22,918 nt of DNA from positions 1-22,918 of IMG/VR virus record IMGVR_UViG_3300020159_001122, one strand, 5' to 3'. Numbering within the stretch: position 1 is the first letter of the stretch; each line of letters opens with the position of its first letter. The notes beneath the pieces were generated by a model, which was given only the letters and a program-made list of their open reading frames with translations, searched no databases and had not been told where the DNA came from. Positions 6,634 to 16,256 of this stretch are shown piece after piece. This DNA is from a virus. The position numbers were made by a program, and so were the translations under genes.

Positions 6634-7111
6634 AGAATATCTAAGCAAGTGGATCGTTGAAGTTCTAGACAAACCACAAGTATGGCTTAACAATCTTCCG
6701 TCATGCCCATATGCCAAACAGGCACTAATTAATAATCGTATAGACTTTAAACAAAGTCATGACTACATAACTGATATTCGTGAACTATTTGGTCATTGGG
6801 ATCCACAATTTGATGTAGTAGTACTAGTATGCGATGACGACATTGAATCGGAATTGTTTAGTGAGCATGTTGCAGAACTTAACAGACACTATGTTCCTTT
6901 AGGATACGCTTGTTTAGAAGATCATATTAACTGTGTTGAAACAGTTAAAGATATTAAATTTAATAACGGTCGATATAATCTAATAATATGTCAGCCGTTA
7001 AATAAACTTAATGCTGCGACTGTGCAGTTACACAAACAGGGTTATTATCAACACTGGGACAAAGACTACTACGATCAAGTAGTCAGCTGGCGACTAGCTG
7101 GAACCAAGTAA
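6617..7111 (+). CDS. Hypothetical protein with CPYAK motif
   Basis: Starting at the ATG at 6617 (in frame, inside the end of the amidinotransferase gene) gives 164 aa; a start at 6590 would add a run of hydrophobic residues with no support. I do not recognise the family. Visible features are an early LPSCPYAKQAL segment (a CPxA sequence reminiscent of thioredoxin/glutaredoxin active sites but missing the second Cys), an acidic strand VVVLVCDDDIESELF, a possible buried LNRHYVPLGYACLEDHI segment, and a Trp/Tyr-rich end. The DxF-x-VVVLVCDDD part looks like the core strand of an alpha/beta fold. It is the last plus-strand gene of the island and converges on the GNAT-like gene with an 18-nt overlap. 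Confidence 0.7.
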   Translation: MTTDFKEYLSKWIVEVLDKPQVWLNNLPSCPYAKQALINNRIDFKQSHDYITDIRELFGHWDPQFDVVVLVCDDDIESELFSEHVAELNRHYVPLGYACLEDHINCVETVKDIKFNNGRYNLIICQPLNKLNAATVQLHKQGYYQHWDKDYYDQVVSWRLAGTK

Positions 7112-7531
7112 TTCAAACCCATCTATAGCAGATTTGTATTCTGTATATTCGCCGAGATACAAATACTCATAACCTTGATCTTTGTATAACGCACACTCGT
7201 GCTCAAGACTACGCATACCTAATCTCAGTTTTGGTGTTTCATAGTCCCATATAAATCTTTCAGCCATAACACTTTTACTGTGTACAAACTTTAATATAAG
7301 ACTGTAGGCAACTAATTTTTCATTGTCATAATAGCCAATTACATCAACATTGGGCATTTCAAACTGTTCTTTAAACAGTGGCATTATGCTTTTGAATTTT
7401 TTGTGTGTGCAGTATTTGCCATACAGTGAATTTAATTCATCAAAATTAGGATTCGTAATAAACTTCCACTCGTTGATTTGAGTGTAATAGGTTTTAGACA
7501 AATCAATACGACAATAATTTAGGCCGGGCAT
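7094..7531 (-). CDS. GNAT-like acyl/aminoacyl-transferase
   Basis: The 145-aa product resembles the C-terminal GNAT fold of arginyl-tRNA-protein transferase-type proteins. A central strand IGYYDNEKLVAYSLILKF is followed by ERFIWDYETPKLRLGMRSLEHECAL and a closing YLYLGEYTEYKSAIDGF segment, which matches the typical YLGYY...K..F ending of that fold. Such proteins move an acyl or aminoacyl group from CoA or charged tRNA to an amine. The Q/RxxGxG-type CoA loop is only weakly visible (RLGMRS), so the donor is uncertain. It is the last gene of the minus-strand operon, overlapping the 60-aa gene upstream by 13 nt. Function is by resemblance only. Confidence 0.6.
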   Translation of the reverse strand: MPGLNYCRIDLSKTYYTQINEWKFITNPNFDELNSLYGKYCTHKKFKSIMPLFKEQFEMPNVDVIGYYDNEKLVAYSLILKFVHSKSVMAERFIWDYETPKLRLGMRSLEHECALYKDQGYEYLYLGEYTEYKSAIDGFELLGSS

Positions 7532-7701
7532 GCTTTCAATATTTCAAAAACACTTGCACCTAGTTGTCGCTCAACTAGAGCTCTAGTCGCTTCATTTTCA
7601 TAAATTTGTAATAAAGATTTATACAACACAATGTTCTGTTGTTGTATTTCCATAAATTTATCTATGTAAAATGGATCAGTGAATACAGGTTTATCAGTCA
7701 T
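7519..7701 (-). CDS. Small 60-aa protein, unknown
   Basis: The product is a 60-aa soluble, mostly helical peptide (MTDKPVFTDPFYIDKFMEIQ at the start, then a predicted amphipathic helix, ending in a Cys-Pro-Ala tail). It has no signal peptide or membrane segment. It is accepted as a gene because it fits exactly into the operon: 4 nt after the upstream oxygenase gene and overlapping the GNAT-like gene by 13 nt. No homologue is recognised. Its small size and position next to two oxygenases and a transferase make it a possible carrier or substrate peptide, but nothing in the sequence, such as a Gly-Gly leader site or repeated core, proves that. Confidence 0.6.
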   Translation of the reverse strand: MTDKPVFTDPFYIDKFMEIQQQNIVLYKSLLQIYENEATRALVERQLGASVFEILKACPA

Positions 7702-7705
7702 AATT

Positions 7706-8266
7706 TTAATATATGTTAAAAAGGTATTTAGGTGTCAGGCCACAGTTAGTGCCAGCATGCCAATATCTACGAGATTCCCATTGAAAGGTATCTCCTTGTT
7801 GCTTATTATAAAAAACTTCGTTTTCGCACACAAACACATGACCAAATTGGGGTTGGCCAATATGACAATGCCATCTTAACATATCTGGCTGTGTTAGCAA
7901 TAATTCTTCGTCATCATGCACATCCCAATGCATAGGTGCTTGTCTACCGGGCCATATTCTGCTGATCCATGACCCCGATTTTGGTTGTATTTCAAAAAAA
8001 TCACAGAACTTTTCTTCAACGATTCGATCGTAATGTTTGCCAGGAAAAAACATATCCCATTGTACTGTCCCACCAAGTTCAACTATCTTATATCCTTCGT
8101 CTCTCCATATATCTGTAACTTGATGAAGTAAAGGAATTGGATCACCTTCTTTGTGAGTAGGTCCATTATCTGGTCCTGGATGCCGTTCGTAGTCACATCG
8201 TTCTAATCCGTTGATAACATCAGTCCAATTAATGACATTACTACAATTTCCTATAAAGCTAATCAT
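7706..8266 (-). CDS. Cupin-type Fe(II)/2OG oxygenase-like protein (paralogue 1)
   Basis: The 186-aa product has an HxD pair in APMHWDVHDD (H113, D115) and a distal His in RRYWHAGTN (H170), the layout of the Asp/Asn beta-hydroxylase-like cupins. A strand with an Arg-Trp-His (LRWHCHIG) lies between them. It is clearly paralogous to the product of the gene just upstream (8259-8825): both share WDxxxP near the middle, HWDV-D, FYN-QQG/EQG, and HAGTN-G followed by YLF. The substrate is unknown. It overlaps that paralogue by 8 nt. The tandem arrangement suggests gene duplication within the operon, possibly giving two enzymes acting on related positions, or a heterodimer. Confidence 0.75.
   Translation of the reverse strand: MISFIGNCSNVINWTDVINGLERCDYERHPGPDNGPTHKEGDPIPLLHQVTDIWRDEGYKIVELGGTVQWDMFFPGKHYDRIVEEKFCDFFEIQPKSGSWISRIWPGRQAPMHWDVHDDEELLLTQPDMLRWHCHIGQPQFGHVFVCENEVFYNKQQGDTFQWESRRYWHAGTNCGLTPKYLFNIY
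7724..7731 (-). promoter_or_regulatory. CTAAATAC motif on minus strand, candidate internal promoter
   Basis: On the minus strand CTAAATAC lies inside the 3' end of the oxygenase gene and 22 nt upstream of the ATG of the 60-aa gene (7701). It is identical to the motif before the gene at 1421. It could give the last two genes their own late transcript, but it lies in coding sequence and may be chance. Confidence 0.25.
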
Positions 8267-8825
8267 TGGGAATTCCTAAAAAATGAAAAAGATAATATGG
8301 GCCTTGTCCAGCGTTGGTTCCAGCATGATATTCTCGGTAGTGGTCCCATCGATATATTTCACCTTGTTCTATATTATAAAAACATTCATTACCTAAAATA
8401 AATGCTTGAGCAAATTTTGGTTTATCTATAAAACAAACATAGCGAACAAGTTCTCCTTGTTTCAGCCACTCTTCCTCATTATCTTCTACATCCCAATGAT
8501 ACGGAACACATTGACCTGGCATGATTTCAGAAATAAACACACGTTTAGGATCAGCATTAACTATGCTAGCAAATATATCTTGTACATTGCTGTTAAAATG
8601 TTCCTCTGGATAATAGTCCCACCATTCGATGTTTTTAAAATCGTAATTGGCTTTTTTCCAGGTACTCATTATGTCTTTATAGTAGCCAAGATTAACTGTG
8701 GGATCATCTTCAACGCGAGCTGTTACTGTAGAAGGACTATTATGATCTCCGCTGCGAGGCACAATACTTTTTATAATATTGTCCCAATCAATTAAACCAT
8801 TAGTGGAACCGATGCGCTTAGGCAT
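8259..8825 (-). CDS. Cupin-type Fe(II)/2OG oxygenase-like protein (paralogue 2)
   Basis: With the ATG at 8825 the product is 188 aa (MPKRIGSTNGLIDWDN...); a longer frame to 8876 would run into the upstream gene and is not needed. Iron-binding residues are visible as an HxD in VPYHWDVED (H110, D112) and a distal His in EYHAGTNAG (H167). The spacing is almost the same as in the neighbouring paralogue. A conserved WWDYYPEEHF segment precedes the oxygenase core, corresponding to WDMFFPGKHY in the paralogue. Relatives hydroxylate amino-acid side chains or small molecules, but the substrate here is unknown. It overlaps the kinase-like gene upstream by 8 nt and paralogue 1 downstream by 8 nt. Confidence 0.75.
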   Translation of the reverse strand: MPKRIGSTNGLIDWDNIIKSIVPRSGDHNSPSTVTARVEDDPTVNLGYYKDIMSTWKKANYDFKNIEWWDYYPEEHFNSNVQDIFASIVNADPKRVFISEIMPGQCVPYHWDVEDNEEEWLKQGELVRYVCFIDKPKFAQAFILGNECFYNIEQGEIYRWDHYREYHAGTNAGQGPYYLFHFLGIPND

Positions 8826-9510
8826 TAAAAATTTTCCTATATATAAATTCCATAGTGTAGTTACCCCACTTAACATGTTCTTGCATGGAACGTTGAAACA
8901 TGATTTCTAAATTGTATTTGTTATTAACAATAGCGCCAGTTTCAGCTAATCTAAATTTTGCCGATTCGTGTATAATACCGTCCATATATTCTGCATCGAT
9001 ATATGGATCGTTGACTGGTACACAACCATACCAATCTATCGTTTGCATTTGCCCATCTTTAATAAAATGGCAATGAGGATACATAGTTAATTTGTATGTT
9101 CCGGTGTTATATAAATCTGTCATTATGTACTGAAGTTGGTTTTTCCAATCGCTACAATAATTATCTAGTTTTTTACCGCTATAGATAATTTCATTGCACG
9201 TTTCACCTTGCCATTCAAAAAATATTTGTTTTGCTTTATAATCAATATCTATTACAGCAGGAGTGTATGGTTTGTCTTTATATTTTAATAAATTTTTTAC
9301 TTCATTATCAAAGAACCATTCAGTTACTGTAGAAGTATACAGTGTTCTATTAGCATCTTCTTGTTTTTGGTATTTGTTTAACCAATCATAATTAGCACAA
9401 AATATAGTACGTTCTGGATTAAGTAGTGGCTCGTAGGTTTGTTGAGACATGCATCGTATGCCGTCCTCGTCTAATTTTAAAAAAGGTATCCAATTATTAA
9501 TCGAAATCAC
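8818..9510 (-). CDS. Hypothetical protein, weak kinase-like features
   Basis: The 230-aa product is not firmly recognised. Its middle part resembles the catalytic half of a protein-kinase-like fold. A hinge-like FFEWQGETCNEII stretch (about residues 97-109) is followed by a helix (DWKNQLQYIMTDLYNTGTYK), then LTMYPHCHFIKDGQMQTIDW, where H146/H148 with N-terminal Tyr-Pro could be a catalytic-loop relative and D159-W-Y-G a DFG-like metal site. No glycine-rich loop or VAIK-type Lys can be named. If it is a kinase, the target would be a small molecule or protein in the same pathway. It is embedded in the operon, overlapping the cold-shock/oxygenase gene by 14 nt. I am sure it is a real gene and unsure of its function. 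Confidence 0.6.
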   Translation of the reverse strand: MISINNWIPFLKLDEDGIRCMSQQTYEPLLNPERTIFCANYDWLNKYQKQEDANRTLYTSTVTEWFFDNEVKNLLKYKDKPYTPAVIDIDYKAKQIFFEWQGETCNEIIYSGKKLDNYCSDWKNQLQYIMTDLYNTGTYKLTMYPHCHFIKDGQMQTIDWYGCVPVNDPYIDAEYMDGIIHESAKFRLAETGAIVNNKYNLEIMFQRSMQEHVKWGNYTMEFIYRKIFNA

Positions 9511-10321
9511 GAACTTTATATCCTACACGAGGTTGATCGCTAAAGAAACAACTAGCGATCCATTTAGTTCCTTGAGTGATCAACCGACTTTCATGAATTG
9601 TACTCCAGTTTGTTACTTCATCATAGCACTGTTCAAAGTACAAGAATGAACCTGCTTTTGGTTGTATTTCAACATTTAATTTTGGAAAATAGGTTTGGCC
9701 GCCTACAAAATTGTCATTCAAAAAGAATATACCGGTTCCTACTCTGTCGCCGCCGTATTTGTAATAGTTTATTTGTCTCGGATCGTACGGGTAATCGTGA
9801 TGCAGATCTAAATACTGCCCTTCGACATAGTTATAGATATCTATAGCTTCAATATGGCTGTACGGAATTTTTGCAGAATTCACAATCGCTGTGGCCAACA
9901 TATCATAATGATAGGGATCTACTCCTAGACTTATTCCTCTGTTTTCTACTAATTCTGTTACCTGTTGAAAAGATTCTTGTCTACTTTGTATTCCGGAATT
10001 AGGATTCATCCCATTTCTAGAATGTCTTTCAATGATACTATTACATGCTTCTATAGACAAAAGATTATCAAAAACACTTATCCTTGGAATGTCTAAATGT
10101 TTGTGCTCAACCACTGAGGTCAGAACACTGATGTTGATAGCTTTACTGCCCTCTTCTGTTTCTATTCGTTCAAAAGAAACCTGCTGAAGTTCAAACAGTA
10201 CCTGAGGTTCTGCATTTATATCGCATTTTTCTACTAGAATAGAGGATCCATCTTTGTCAGATAAGATAAATCCATAATCTTTAGCATCATTAAACCATTT
10301 AACTATTCCGTATTCTATCAT
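9497..10321 (-). CDS. Cold-shock domain fused to prolyl-4-hydroxylase-type Fe(II)/2OG oxygenase
   Basis: The 274-aa product has two domains. Residues 1-70 look like a cold-shock (OB-fold) domain: GIVKWFNDAKDYGFI matches the CSD RNP-1 signature (GxVKWFNxxKGYGFI), followed by SILVEKCDI and VSFERIETEEGSKAINI as in CspA-type proteins. Residues from about 78 to 274 are a P4H-type double-stranded beta-helix: YNYVEGQYLDLHHDY gives the HxD iron ligands (H174, D176), GGQTYFPKLN and PKAGSFLYFE are family strands, H243 (TIHES) is the distal His and K253 (GTKWIASCFF) the 2OG-binding Lys. All catalytic residues are present. The fusion suggests an oxygenase guided to single-stranded nucleic acid, or one acting on a ribosome/RNA-bound protein. 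It overlaps genes on both sides by 4-14 nt. Confidence 0.88.
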   Translation of the reverse strand: MIEYGIVKWFNDAKDYGFILSDKDGSSILVEKCDINAEPQVLFELQQVSFERIETEEGSKAINISVLTSVVEHKHLDIPRISVFDNLLSIEACNSIIERHSRNGMNPNSGIQSRQESFQQVTELVENRGISLGVDPYHYDMLATAIVNSAKIPYSHIEAIDIYNYVEGQYLDLHHDYPYDPRQINYYKYGGDRVGTGIFFLNDNFVGGQTYFPKLNVEIQPKAGSFLYFEQCYDEVTNWSTIHESRLITQGTKWIASCFFSDQPRVGYKVRDFD

Positions 10322-11247
10322 ATATGTTTATCCGCCCTGATGTCAGCACCGCAATCACATCGTGATCTATTGCAAATCACAGATTTCGGCCATTGATCAA
10401 TGTTAAAATCTTTAACATTTCCGAGATCGATCATTCCACAATTGCTCCAAGAAATATTACCCTCGGGTGTAATTAGTAAATTTTCTTTTCCAGAAAAACA
10501 AGTCCACCCTAGAAAATTGTTAGTATCATTTTTCATTAATTGATCTGGATCTAACACCGAAGTTGATCCGTCGTCGTATACCGCTGTAGTGTCAATGTCC
10601 TTTAACCAACCATGAGAAGCTTCTAGTTCGCTAAATCGGTCTTTGGTAAATTGCCAGCTTGGGGGAGTGTCTAACAATGCTAACTGTTCGGGAGACCACT
10701 GATATGTGTAATTTGCTCCTGCCCAATTATCGACTGGTTTGATTAGTATAATTTTTATATTTTCTAATGATTTTAATTGAGAAACCCATGAGTTAGCTAA
10801 ATCCCAATGCTTAGGATCCATCATTACATAAACAATTACAAAACTTTGATCTGTTAAAACTTTGATTTTTTCAATATCAAATTTATGTTGACTTGGATGC
10901 ATGGTTAAACACCAAACATCTGCTAGATTAGCGACTTCTTTATAGAATCTAGCTGTCCTAACATTATTACTATCTACTGTGATTTTAATTCCAGTCCCTC
11001 GAAGCATTTTTAATATATCGATAAACTGAGGATGAGTAGTAACTTCCCCACCAGTAATTCCAATATATATAGGTTGCGTAAACTGACTGAAAAACTTTTT
11101 GTAAAAATCTAAATCAATAGTTAGATGTTTTCCAGTCCTAAATTGAGAAGGGCAGTATTCACAGGCATATACACAATTAGTGGTCATTTGCCAAGTAATT
11201 TTTAATGTGTGTTGATTACCGGATTGAATTTTAATTAGTTTTTTCAT
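10318..11247 (-). CDS. Radical SAM enzyme with SPASM-like C-terminus (paralogue B)
   Basis: The 309-aa product has the cluster motif CVYACEYC (residues 25-32), a GGE motif in GITGGEVTTHP where Val replaces the usual Pro, and a Cys-rich C-terminus GWTCFSGKENL, then SNCGMIDLGN, then CNRSRCDCGAD. The C-terminal pattern is nearly superimposable on paralogue A (4226-5122), including the closing CxxxxCxCxAD, so both probably hold the same auxiliary cluster(s). The barrel interior differs, which suggests different substrates or different sites on one substrate. The gene starts 17 nt inside the end of the sulfotransferase-like gene and ends in a 4-nt ATGA overlap with the cold-shock/oxygenase gene. 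Confidence 0.9.
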   Translation of the reverse strand: MKKLIKIQSGNQHTLKITWQMTTNCVYACEYCPSQFRTGKHLTIDLDFYKKFFSQFTQPIYIGITGGEVTTHPQFIDILKMLRGTGIKITVDSNNVRTARFYKEVANLADVWCLTMHPSQHKFDIEKIKVLTDQSFVIVYVMMDPKHWDLANSWVSQLKSLENIKIILIKPVDNWAGANYTYQWSPEQLALLDTPPSWQFTKDRFSELEASHGWLKDIDTTAVYDDGSTSVLDPDQLMKNDTNNFLGWTCFSGKENLLITPEGNISWSNCGMIDLGNVKDFNIDQWPKSVICNRSRCDCGADIRADKHI

Positions 11248-12977: not shown

Positions 12978-13817
12978 TTATTTAAGGCCCAGCTCTTGAC
13001 GAATTTTTGTGGCACTGATGTCTGTGATTGTTTCCTCAAATGTTTCCTCGCCACTGGTATAACCTACACCCCTGCCCCATCCAATGTGTACGATATTCGG
13101 AACTACTTGTATTTCGTATTGCCCTTGATATATTGGATCTAAATCTCGACGAATAAATGATTTGACTTTTTCTACTTCAAAAGGATTGCTACCTTGCCAG
13201 CCTTGAACATCACGTATTTGAATAACCACTTGCCCTGTACGTTGTATTAATCTTTCAAACAGAGCACGATGACCGTCATGCCACGGCTGCCAACGACCTA
13301 ACATCTGCACTGTTTCTTGTTTCCAATTAAAGACGGGGCGACGACGATTATCAATGATGTGTTGCCCGATAAACTCAGCCCACTTTTCTGCATTCTGTTC
13401 CGTGACACGGAAATCATACACTTCAGGTTCTACAAAGGCTGCATTGGTATCAGCATAACGTCCTTCACGTATGGTATCCATCCAAATGGTCCAGTCTGCT
13501 TTGAAGTTGTTGCGCATTTCTACCAAGGGTGCAACAAAGTCACAGATAACATAGTCACCTCCGGCTTCTATGCTGAACTGGAACATACGCAAACTCTGAC
13601 GAATGCGGCCATCATTGCTGAAGTCCCAGTCGTTGTACTTGCGACGAATATCATCTGCGTTGAACCAAGTTACCTTAGGTTTAAAACCAGTTATGGGTAA
13701 CATCTCAGCGTGACTCAAATCTGCTGTTCCGTGTTTTTCAAGATACTTTTTAAGAGCATCTGCTAGTGTTGTTTTACCTGAGCCTGGTAGGCCCATAATT
13801 AAAATTCGTTGTGTCAT
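12978..13817 (-). CDS. APS-kinase-like kinase fused to NadM-like nucleotidyltransferase
   Basis: The ATG at 13817 gives 279 aa; an upstream extension to 13877 would overlap the methyltransferase gene for no gain. Residues 1-160 are a P-loop kinase: Walker A GLPGSGKTT at 9-17, then WFNADDIRRKYNDWDFS and CDFVAPLVEMR, the layout of adenylylsulfate kinases. Residues from about 168 are a nucleotidyltransferase: GRWQPWHDGH (HxGH at 180-183) and ISATKIR (267-273, the ISSTxxR motif), as in NMN/other adenylyl- or cytidylyltransferases. The fusion could phosphorylate and then nucleotidylate a small molecule, or make PAPS or an NAD-like compound. It overlaps the methyltransferase gene by 4 nt (ATGA). 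Both domain calls are firm; the substrate is open. Confidence 0.85.
   Translation of the reverse strand: MTQRILIMGLPGSGKTTLADALKKYLEKHGTADLSHAEMLPITGFKPKVTWFNADDIRRKYNDWDFSNDGRIRQSLRMFQFSIEAGGDYVICDFVAPLVEMRNNFKADWTIWMDTIREGRYADTNAAFVEPEVYDFRVTEQNAEKWAEFIGQHIIDNRRRPVFNWKQETVQMLGRWQPWHDGHRALFERLIQRTGQVVIQIRDVQGWQGSNPFEVEKVKSFIRRDLDPIYQGQYEIQVVPNIVHIGWGRGVGYTSGEETFEETITDISATKIRQELGLK
12979..12985 (-). promoter_or_regulatory. TTAAATA motif upstream of SGNH-like gene
   Basis: On the minus strand TTAAATA overlaps the stop codon of the kinase/nucleotidyltransferase gene and lies 12 nt before the ATG at 12966. It falls at the only real gap in the operon, so an internal late promoter is possible. 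The Lys-stop codons themselves account for most of the match. Confidence 0.25.
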
Positions 13818-14407
13818 TGGGTAGTTCCTATAATCATATATCGCGTGTACAGTGGCAGTTTGAGTTCGCCAGCCCATTGTACTTTTACTTGACTCTGTTC
13901 TACAAAATGTTCTAAATCTTTTGCAATACGTATGTGTTCTGGAATATCATAATTATTACTCTGTAATACTAATAGACTGTTATGTGGCATTCCACTCAAC
14001 CATAGATCATATTGATCCTGTGTGATATGTTCGCAACTGGTATTGATAATAACATCGGCATCACTACGCATGGCACACATGTCTGCGGTCACTGCCCGAA
14101 ACTTGCCTGCCATTTCTTCTTTCTTATTCATCATTATAGCAATAGGTTCACACGTGGGATCGATATCAACGCTACGAATATTCTTAATGTAAATATCACT
14201 CTGGAATAGCATACTAGCGAGTACCCCGACCCAGCCGCCATGAATATCAATGCTGACAAACTTGTTTACATGTTTTCGAAGATTAGTGATTAACCACTCT
14301 TTGCTATTAAGTTGGCCCGACCAAAAGGCATCCATGGTCCTTATCGGATCTGGACTTTGACGGATAGCCTGCATCCAATAATGTAAATGTTCTAGATCAA
14401 TTTGCAT
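13814..14407 (-). CDS. SAM-dependent methyltransferase-like protein (class I)
   Basis: The 197-aa product has a Rossmann-type methyltransferase core. Motif I appears as SIDIHGGWVGVLASML (residues 52-67), motif II as SVDIDP (D81/D83 region, binding the SAM ribose), an acidic motif III at ADMCAM, and a catalytic-region NTSCEH (122-127) followed by LVLQSNNY. Motif I is degenerate (HGGWVG instead of GxGxG), as in some phage and small-molecule methyltransferases. It has no DNA target-recognition domain and no NPPY/DPPY motif, so a DNA adenine methylase role is unlikely. The gene starts inside the end of the radical SAM gene (16-nt overlap) and overlaps the kinase/nucleotidyltransferase start by 4 nt. 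Confidence 0.78.
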   Translation of the reverse strand: MQIDLEHLHYWMQAIRQSPDPIRTMDAFWSGQLNSKEWLITNLRKHVNKFVSIDIHGGWVGVLASMLFQSDIYIKNIRSVDIDPTCEPIAIMMNKKEEMAGKFRAVTADMCAMRSDADVIINTSCEHITQDQYDLWLSGMPHNSLLVLQSNNYDIPEHIRIAKDLEHFVEQSQVKVQWAGELKLPLYTRYMIIGTTQ

Positions 14408-15381
14408 TTTGGTATCTTTGAATCCGCCGAACTTACACAGCTAGGTGTAACACATATTTTTGGTTCTGTAAACAAATCAAATCCCTCTGTGAGTGTGCCC
14501 AAAGGCTGATCATGACAACTATATGATCTTTTAACTTCATTGCTTCTTATTATAACACTTTGATAGCCACTATTGCAACTCCAACCTTGAAATTTATTGA
14601 AATTAAATGCATTAAATCTTTCGGCCTGATCAAATAAGTATTCTTGGCCATTTTGATCATACAGTGCTATTTGATATAGATCTTCATCATCTACTTTCTG
14701 AGGAAATCCTGTTTGCATAATATCAATCATTTCATCAGTGTAACCACTTACTACAAAACTAGCAGTAGGATCACTCTGAGGTTTTAGAGTGACGTTGATA
14801 CCACGTTTAACAAATCTTTCACAGCGTTCATATAATTCCCAAAACTGTTCAGGAACCATTACTTGATTGATAGTAATATACACATTATCATAGATTAATT
14901 GCAGACACTTGTCACCAAATTCTTGTTCTTTAGCCTGTTCTGCGTGAAAACTAGCAGTGATACTTCTGCGCTGTAGATCTCTAGTGGCATGGCACCAAGC
15001 TCGCCACCATTTGGATCCTGGTGAAAGATTAGTAGTCATGTGTACGCTTTGGTATGGTGTGTTGGGTCCATCGTCCAAATGTTGTATTAGTTGTATCAGT
15101 TCTTTATAGGCTGTGGGTTCACCGCCCGAGAAACTCCAATGGAACTGATTGAATCCATTCTGCCTCGCCTGACGTTTGATTTCATCCACGGTGTGTTTGT
15201 AGACATCCAAACTTTGATAATCCTGTATGTCTGATCTAGCATAAGGCCAACAATAGGAACAAGAATAGTTACAGAAGCGACCCAAAATCCAACTGGTGGA
15301 GAACAAAGGGCGAGATAACATGGTCCGTTGTCCAAAACGTACGATGTCTTGGAATGGTATTTTTTGAAAATCGATTGTCAT
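14392..15381 (-). CDS. Radical SAM enzyme with SPASM-like C-terminus (paralogue C)
   Basis: This is the first gene of the minus-strand operon, 329 aa. The SAM cluster motif CNYSCSYC is at residues 37-44, and the SAM-binding motif reads SFSGGEPTAY. The C-terminus repeats the paralogue pattern: GWSCNSGYQSV, SYSCHDQPLGT, then CVTPSCVSSAD. In paralogues A and B the last segment has a third Cys (CxxxxCxCxAD). Here that Cys is Ser, so one auxiliary-cluster ligand may be missing or supplied elsewhere. Compared with A and B it has about a dozen extra N-terminal residues and a longer insertion before the C-terminal domain. Its ATG at 15381 faces the divergent promoter region, with a minus-strand TTAAATA motif 10 nt upstream. 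Confidence 0.9.
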   Translation of the reverse strand: MTIDFQKIPFQDIVRFGQRTMLSRPLFSTSWILGRFCNYSCSYCWPYARSDIQDYQSLDVYKHTVDEIKRQARQNGFNQFHWSFSGGEPTAYKELIQLIQHLDDGPNTPYQSVHMTTNLSPGSKWWRAWCHATRDLQRRSITASFHAEQAKEQEFGDKCLQLIYDNVYITINQVMVPEQFWELYERCERFVKRGINVTLKPQSDPTASFVVSGYTDEMIDIMQTGFPQKVDDEDLYQIALYDQNGQEYLFDQAERFNAFNFNKFQGWSCNSGYQSVIIRSNEVKRSYSCHDQPLGTLTEGFDLFTEPKICVTPSCVSSADSKIPKCKLI

Positions 15382-15791: not shown

Positions 15792-16256
15792 ATGACCGAC
15801 AGTGTCGATTTATCCGACATCGATATTACTATCGATGGGAGTGGGGGTACCGATACTCTCACTCTCGATGCTGCAGGTTATCCAAATTATTATACCTCCA
15901 GTGGTCTCACAGTAGGAGGTATCAGTAGTACCAGTTCAATCACTGTACCACATACTATCACAACCGGCGGCACTAATGGATATATGTATGGTGCCGGCAC
16001 AGGTACTGCATGGGTAACTCCTAATTCGGCCAATCAGGGATCGATCAAAGTCACGGGTGATGCGGAATTTGACGGCGATGTTAAAATCAAAGGTCACAGT
16101 TTAACCAAACTTCTAGAACGCATTGAAGATAGAATGGCCATACTAATGGATCCCGATCCTGCAAGACTAGAAAAATTTCAGGCTCTTAAAAAGGCCTATG
16201 ACAACTACAAATTGATGGACAAACTCTGTCAAGAAACTCCGGAAGAAGAAGAATGA
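15792..16256 (+). CDS. Small virion/tail-type structural protein
   Basis: The 154-aa product has a Ser/Thr/Gly-rich, low-complexity N-terminal half (TIDGSGGTDTLTLD, GGISSTSSITVPHT), a bridging GSIKVTGDAEFDGDVKIKG beta-repeat segment typical of phage fibre or structural proteins, and a charged helical tail (LLERIEDRMAILMDPDP). The GDAEFDGDVKIKG-type motif is similar to GDLKVTGDVTAR in the fibre-type protein at the right end of the window. It lies 1 nt after the H1-like gene and shares an ATGA overlap with thyX. A minor virion or base-plate role is inferred from composition; the exact part is unknown. Confidence 0.65.
   Translation: MTDSVDLSDIDITIDGSGGTDTLTLDAAGYPNYYTSSGLTVGGISSTSSITVPHTITTGGTNGYMYGAGTGTAWVTPNSANQGSIKVTGDAEFDGDVKIKGHSLTKLLERIEDRMAILMDPDPARLEKFQALKKAYDNYKLMDKLCQETPEEEE

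Follow-up and report, generated by a model that had tools for sequence, protein, structure and literature searches.

A cold-shock domain fused to a predicted prolyl-4-hydroxylase in T4-like phages: a candidate docking module

Oxygenases of the prolyl-4-hydroxylase (P4H) type are common in aquatic phages; to our knowledge, no substrate has been established for any of them. The closest characterised relative of the enzyme described here is the P4H of Bacillus anthracis (3itq, 5hv0, 5v7y), described in the title of its PDB entry as an enzyme that interacts with EF-Tu and modifies it. More distant are the EF-Tu prolyl hydroxylase of Pseudomonas putida (4iw3) and the PHD2/HIF group, and one virus-encoded P4H is known from PBCV-1 (the viral collagen prolyl hydroxylase, 5c5t). 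Both EF-Tu and the ribosomal protein Rps23 are supported substrates of this oxygenase superfamily (PMC4682802; PMC6437050)—Rps23 is modified by another 2-oxoglutarate (2OG) prolyl hydroxylase (PMC4682802).

Here we describe a gene that joins such an oxygenase to a cold-shock domain (CSD). It lies in a 22,918-nucleotide stretch of viral DNA (IMG/VR virus record IMGVR_UViG_3300020159_001122, positions 1 to 22,918), hereafter the window. The window enzyme has the same fold as the B. anthracis P4H (Z about 20) and the same HxD...H and Lys set, at 28-30% identity over about 172-184 residues; the Bacillus protein is cellular and has no cold-shock domain, whereas that of the window is phage-borne and carries one. 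The P. putida enzyme and the PHD2/HIF group share the DSBH prolyl hydroxylase fold (Z about 14-15) but are further removed, at about 16% identity, and also lack a CSD. The PBCV-1 protein (Z 17.6) has no CSD either and belongs to an algal virus; as to a collagen-like substrate on the phage side, no run of three G-X-P triplets occurs in seven large contigs of phages related to that of the window, whose records may be incomplete. Cyanophage 2OG-Fe(II) oxygenases, gathered in PHROG 61, are P4H-type phage proteins too (phrog_61 is matched by 33 of 37 members of our family), and matches were also found among phage P4H-like proteins in BFVD; these lie at about 24-34% identity to the window enzyme, and no record spans both domains. 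The cold-shock proteins CspA and CspB share with the fused CSD an OB fold (rmsd 1.1-1.3 Å) and the RNP1 motif, but the fused domain lacks the RNP2 motif and the F38 loop and is joined to an enzyme.

The fusion gene and its two domains

A first-pass annotation of the window had proposed that this gene (Table 1) fuses a CSD to a complete P4H with the active-site residues H174, D176, H243 and K253, a proposal that would fall if the N-terminus failed to match a CSD profile or to form an OB fold. Both the match and the fold are present. In the 274-residue protein, Pfam places CSD (PF00313) at residues 4-66 (E 7.3e-11; 42.2 bits against a cut-off of 27) and 2OG-FeII_Oxy_3 (PF13640) at residues 162-260 (E 5.7e-8; 34 bits, cut-off 27), and a search of PDB sequences matches residues 4-65 to the cold-shock protein 3cam (E 3e-8) and residues 77-258 to the B. 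anthracis P4H (3itq/5hv0; E 1e-19). An AlphaFold2 model built on the family alignment has two well-formed domains (mean pLDDT 85.9): residues 1-67 form a five-stranded OB fold that superposes on E. coli CspA (1mjc; Z 14.1, 1.3 Å over 67 residues), and the remainder superposes on P4Hs (Z about 20). The active-site residues had been named correctly; the HxD...H iron triad and the basic 2OG anchor are unchanged in 37 sequences. By fold and catalytic residues, the protein thus qualifies as a P4H-type oxygenase, with putative enzyme activity.

Neither a sequencing artefact nor chance accounts for the fusion: the joined frame is found at 36 of the 47 distinct viral loci, and purifying selection acts on both domains (dN/dS 0.08-0.21 for the CSD, up to 0.16 for the P4H). 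The earlier remark that the domain order is unusual also holds: no Pfam, PHROGs, NCBIfam or PADLOC family spans both halves, and a literature search found no paper on a CSD fused to an oxygenase or to a glutathione peroxidase (GPx) domain. The order is new to these libraries and to the literature searched. As an aside on annotation, 36 of 37 P4H-type oxygenases of this family match PHROG 2297, whose name, 'DNA endonuclease', may be a mis-annotation.

Table 1. Features of the fusion gene and its surroundings; positions refer to the window unless a sister-phage locus is named.
Feature	Position	Strand	Remarks
CSD-P4H fusion gene	9497..10321	-	ATG start, 274 aa
Cold-shock domain, residues 4-66	10124..10312	-	PF00313 E 7e-11; CspA-like fold, Z 14.1
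RNP1 motif KWFNDAKDYGFI, residues 8-19	10265..10300	-	W, F/Y, N, K, F/Y, F retained in nearly all relatives
RNP2-equivalent segment ILVEKC, residues 28-33	10223..10240	-	VFVHFS in canonical Csps; His and both Phe gone
P4H-type Fe(II)/2OG oxygenase domain, ~residues 77-262	9536..10093	-	Profile, PDB sequence and structure matches
HxD iron motif H174-H175-D176	9794..9802	-	Invariant, 37 homologues
Distal iron ligand H243	9593..9595	-	Invariant, 37 homologues
2OG-binding lysine K253	9563..9565	-	Invariant, 37 homologues
KinL, 230 aa	8818..9510	-	14-base overlap with end of fusion gene; predicted protein-kinase-like fold
DSBH1, 205 aa, putative HxD...H oxygenase	8259..8876	-	43/47 loci; invariant H127-W-D129, H184
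DSBH2, 186 aa, DSBH1 paralogue	7706..8266	-	42/47 loci; aligns with DSBH1 at 30-35%
MOD, 60 aa	7519..7701	-	Same module is C-terminal domain of fusion in one clade
Radical SAM gene directly upstream	10318..11247	-	Overlaps fusion start codon; PF04055 E 1.3e-7
MT13814, island gene without assigned family	13814..14407	-	31/47 loci; adjoins CSD gene in many relatives
rSAM_D, radical SAM gene of shared island	14392..15381	-	PF04055 E 2e-11; 33/47 loci
CSD-GPx genes in sister phages	L024 4357-5091; L032 5294-6022; L034 2402-3112; L035 5264-5989		

The CSD half departs from canonical cold-shock proteins in a patterned way. We mapped its positions in 33 sequences (29 CSD-P4H and four CSD-GPx) onto B. 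subtilis CspB, taking the mapped residues to be the nucleic-acid-binding face of CspB, as established for the Csp family. On the RNP1 side, the equivalents of W8, N10 and K13 occur in all 33 sequences, the F9 position is Phe or Tyr in all 33, the F15 position is Phe or Tyr in 31, and F17 is Phe in 31; the window motif, KWFNDAKDYGFI, has the equivalents of W8, F9, F15 and F17. On the other side, the F27 position is aromatic in just eight of 33, none retains His at H29 (acidic, Glu or Asp, in 24 of the 29 CSD-P4H proteins) or Phe at F30 (Lys or Arg in 24 of 29), and all 33 have a deletion of the F38 loop; the window protein likewise has ILVEKC in place of a VFVHFS-type RNP2 and no Phe38 loop.

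The annotation had read the CSD as a working nucleic-acid binder, a reading that these residues weaken: of the eight ring positions that make up the CspB face, four are lost across the family, nearly throughout, and a free-standing cold-shock protein of one of these phages retains what the fused domain has lost. This free protein, encoded in a contig that also carries the fusion (G001), has an RNP2 that reads DLFAHFS and scores 103 bits on PF00313, against 42 for the fused domain. Because the fused CSD keeps only half of the canonical face, it is more consistent with a maintained OB-fold module that serves in docking than with a general binder of single-stranded nucleic acid. The four retained aromatics, the retained Lys13 and the Lys or Arg gained at F30 speak the other way, and the domain may still make residual contact with nucleic acid, at most in an altered and weaker form. 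By profile and fold the domain belongs to the CSD family, and we withhold the name "nucleic-acid-binding cold-shock protein" because RNP2 is missing from its face.

Distribution, exchange of partners and the surrounding island

The 47 distinct homologous phage P4H loci divide into 36 with the CSD-P4H fusion, five with a CSD-GPx protein and a separate P4H, and six without a CSD, the last being a distant outgroup. The fusion recurs in other genomes down to about 60% P4H identity, with the CSD as the more variable half (51% identity in the CSD and 79% in the P4H between the window and L020). The CSD swaps partners—it is found on the P4H, on a GPx near the P4H, or not at all. The Pfam GSHPx profile lies above its cut-off in all four CSD-GPx proteins tested (E 1e-29 to 1e-34), and CSD in three of the four; that of L035 falls below, at 18 bits. 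The CSD-GPx and P4H genes share a few bases in L032, L034 and L035, and one epimerase-like gene separates them in L024. With its peroxidase half, CSD-GPx adds another CSD fusion of unusual type. The GPx motif NTASxCGLTPQY is largely intact, and the CSD-GPx protein may be an active thiol peroxidase. A search for GSHPx elsewhere in fused-form phages gave no match in six related contigs, several of which are fragments. A further variant, confined to one clade, has a C-terminal module of about 60 residues after the P4H in 11 fused proteins; elsewhere, including the window (7519-7701), the module is a separate gene. Since the CSD, GPx, P4H and C-terminal module are fused to one another in various loci, these arrangements suggest that they function together.

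In a midpoint-rooted P4H tree, the CSD-less group forms one side (support 100/100) and the fused form is spread across the ingroup; the GPx forms are nested in at least two places, and two GPx branches are long or weakly placed (L035 and L067 being long branches). Most simply, a single gain of the CSD was followed by insertion of the GPx or by its exchange through recombination, a polarity that depends on the midpoint root and the long branches. On this scheme the P4H cassette would have existed first, without a CSD; the ancestor of the main clade would have acquired the CSD, joined to its P4H; in some lineages a glutathione peroxidase domain would then have entered after the CSD and so split the gene into two (or have been lost in the others); and the 60-residue module would have been fused to the C-terminus in one clade. 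Between the window and L007 and L010, dS is 0.25-0.36 in the CSD and 1.3-1.4 in the P4H; this strong difference in synonymous divergence between the halves points to recombination within the fused gene, which would exchange the CSD among phages.

Outside this family, relatives are few and remote. Two scans of 84,980 species genomes (one with the P4H alignment, one with the whole protein, both requiring near-exact short peptides) followed by tblastn yielded no cellular relative; named phages gave solely matches of 24-34%, none covering both domains; and plasmids, queried with the P4H half, gave stand-alone 2OG oxygenases alone, at 26-34%.

The P4H belongs to a gene cassette. KinL is present in 44 of 47 loci, and several of the loci that lack it, DSBH1 or DSBH2 (Table 1) are contigs ending near the gene. 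The model of KinL (pLDDT 93.3) has its best Z, 12.5, to protein kinase domains and its top Foldseek match to the RNA kinase Ark1, and on this model we assign it a kinase-like fold. DSBH1 and DSBH2 share an invariant H-W-D and a distal His, a motif by which they can be classed as putative Fe(II)/2OG oxygenases; they have no profile match in Pfam or PDB, and profile searches of PDB sequences likewise gave none for KinL. Radical SAM genes surround the cassette, and aspartyl-hydroxylase-like and ATE_C-like GNAT genes lie in the same island. The "radical SAM/oxygenase island" of the first-pass annotation is real—PF04055 matches occur in the window, and island genes are common to related loci—and a literature search found no paper on it. 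The further idea that the fusion ties the island to nucleic acid is unsupported, as the cassette of distant phages is the same but for a P4H without a CSD (L152, L157). Because the cassette also occurs in that form, the CSD is, from this comparison of loci, an addition to the cassette and not its core.

Several neighbouring genes deserve a brief description. The GNAT-type protein (7094-7531) matches ATE_C, the arginyl-tRNA-protein transferase C-terminal domain (E 6e-6). A PP-loop ATPase (2262-2987) with a QueC-like C-terminal cysteine motif, CGTCFWCKEREWA, adjoins two radical SAM genes; its Pfam QueC match is below threshold (E 0.016). The radical SAM protein at 10318-11247 has viperins as its nearest PADLOC models (pVip, E 1.7e-11), and is probably not a viperin itself, scoring 31 bits against an NCBIfam viperin cut-off of 180. 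One ORF (12978-13877) combines an APS-kinase-like P-loop half (E 2.9e-6) with a weak cytidylyltransferase-like half (E 0.04) and is perhaps a nucleotidyl transferase-kinase fusion. Adjoining ThyX at 15792-16256, and at the same place in L024, L031 and L157, is a protein with a conserved C-terminus (~...PDPAKLExFxALKKAYxHYK...) and a fast-changing N-terminus rich in Gly, Ser, Thr and Tyr, with 31-52% identity among otherwise close relatives; it may be part of the virion or tail tip, or may serve the island as a substrate.

The window represents part of the genome of a T4-like phage, and its relatives are likewise T4-like. The T4-type major capsid protein gp23 is present in six of 11 related contigs and the terminase in four of five, and the ORFs of contig G001 read as including T4-type genes for DNA polymerase, sliding clamp and ribonucleotide reductase. 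Judged by the ThyX of the window, the nearest named phages are Methylophilales phages (Melnitz, 64%). T4-type methylotroph phages with radical SAM genes have been described from a Lake Baikal virome (PMC7678222) and, likened by that description, may be kin of the window phage. In G001, AhpD- and AhpC-like peroxide-defence genes also appear, on reading the sequence, to lie near the canonical cold-shock protein gene (L172 7470-8560).

Candidate substrate and role of the cold-shock domain

The reading that we favour, and hold to be reasonably probable, is that the fusion is a phage protein-prolyl hydroxylase (its activity being predicted) with a cold-shock-derived docking module rather than a general nucleic-acid binder. 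It would be an intracellular Fe(II)/2-oxoglutarate prolyl-4-hydroxylase whose N-terminal OB-fold domain derives from a cold-shock protein; the enzyme would hydroxylate a prolyl residue of some protein of the host or the phage, with the cold-shock-like domain serving as a docking module, exchangeable between proteins, for the substrate, a cassette partner enzyme or the ribosome.

The oxygenase half bears directly on the type of substrate. Its best PDB structural match is the B. anthracis P4H (Z 19.9, 28% identity over 184 residues); next come P4Hs from algae, from viruses (collagen type) and from humans, and the P. putida enzyme solved with EF-Tu, 4iw3. Among the 50 best structural matches listed, all are cold-shock proteins, hydroxylases of protein prolyl or lysyl residues, or PiuC-type and other 2OG enzymes. 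These results disfavour the annotation's suggestion that RNA or DNA is itself hydroxylated, with the CSD presenting single strands, and we now regard it as highly improbable; the one point in its favour is the presence of a CSD-type domain. No nucleic-acid dioxygenase is among the 50 best matches listed, no AlkB-type enzyme is among the structural matches listed for the oxygenase half, and Pfam gives no AlkB-type match in the fusion, with solely CSD and 2OG-FeII_Oxy_3 above cut-off. The loss of RNP2, and the CSD-less orthologues that retain the same cassette, speak against it as well. A gentler version, in which the CSD binds RNA (mRNA, rRNA or the ribosome) and so delivers the P4H to an RNA-held protein such as a ribosomal protein, ribosome-bound EF-Tu or a nascent chain, is a contender, if an unlikely one: the RNP1 set (W, F/Y, N, K, F/Y, F) is present in nearly every member, the domain is under purifying selection, and close oxygenase relatives modify EF-Tu as another 2OG prolyl hydroxylase modifies Rps23 (PMC4682802). 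Against this version stand the loss of F27, H29, F30 and F38 in nearly all members, with an acidic residue at H29 in 24 of 29 CSD-P4H proteins, and the low PF00313 score of the fused domain beside that of the free protein with its RNP2 intact (42 and 103 bits).

Two further explanations look away from nucleic acid. The enzyme might tailor a peptide or small molecule made by the radical SAM island, with the CSD or GPx merely organising an enzyme complex; the P4H is almost always beside KinL and two further putative oxygenases, and the island is rich in radical SAM genes besides its aspartyl-hydroxylase-like and ATE_C-like GNAT members, but no precursor peptide was identified and the substrates of characterised P4H relatives are folded proteins or proline-rich repeats, so that we rate this explanation as doubtful. 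That the CSD is a role-less passenger left by operon rearrangement is very unlikely: it is the more variable half of the protein (51% against 79%, window and L020) and can be replaced by the CSD-GPx arrangement, but its dN/dS of 0.08-0.21, its retention at 36 of the 47 loci, even where P4H identity falls to about 60%, and its nearly invariant RNP1 are at odds with that idea.

Returning to the docking reading, translation machinery, the annotation's own alternative, is a better lead for the target than RNA or DNA, because the closest characterised relative modifies EF-Tu. A protein of that machinery—EF-Tu or a ribosomal protein—would be the best single candidate, and is put forward tentatively at most, the case for EF-Tu being one of homology at about 28-30% identity. 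The more specific proposal, that the half-degenerate CSD attaches to a translation factor or to ribosomes engaged in translation while the P4H hydroxylates a host translation protein (e.g. EF-Tu), is distinctly unlikely as it stands. The Pseudomonas prolyl hydroxylase modifies the switch I region of EF-Tu, which lies near the cut site of the T4-exclusion protease Lit; because of this closeness, hydroxylation at switch I, if it occurs here by analogy, could influence phage exclusion.

The family offers a case of a cold-shock domain that has been retained as an enzyme module after the loss of half its nucleic-acid-binding face, in a fusion shared by dozens of sequences from T4-like phages, swapped to a peroxidase in some and extended by a module in others. 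The CSD, GPx and MOD would provide three physical handles on the partners of the enzyme, so that its substrate may be sought by pull-down and proteomics. If the proposal of a translation target is true, the CSD-P4H, the kinase-like enzyme and the further oxygenases would make up a dedicated phage programme that rewrites the host translation machinery during infection.
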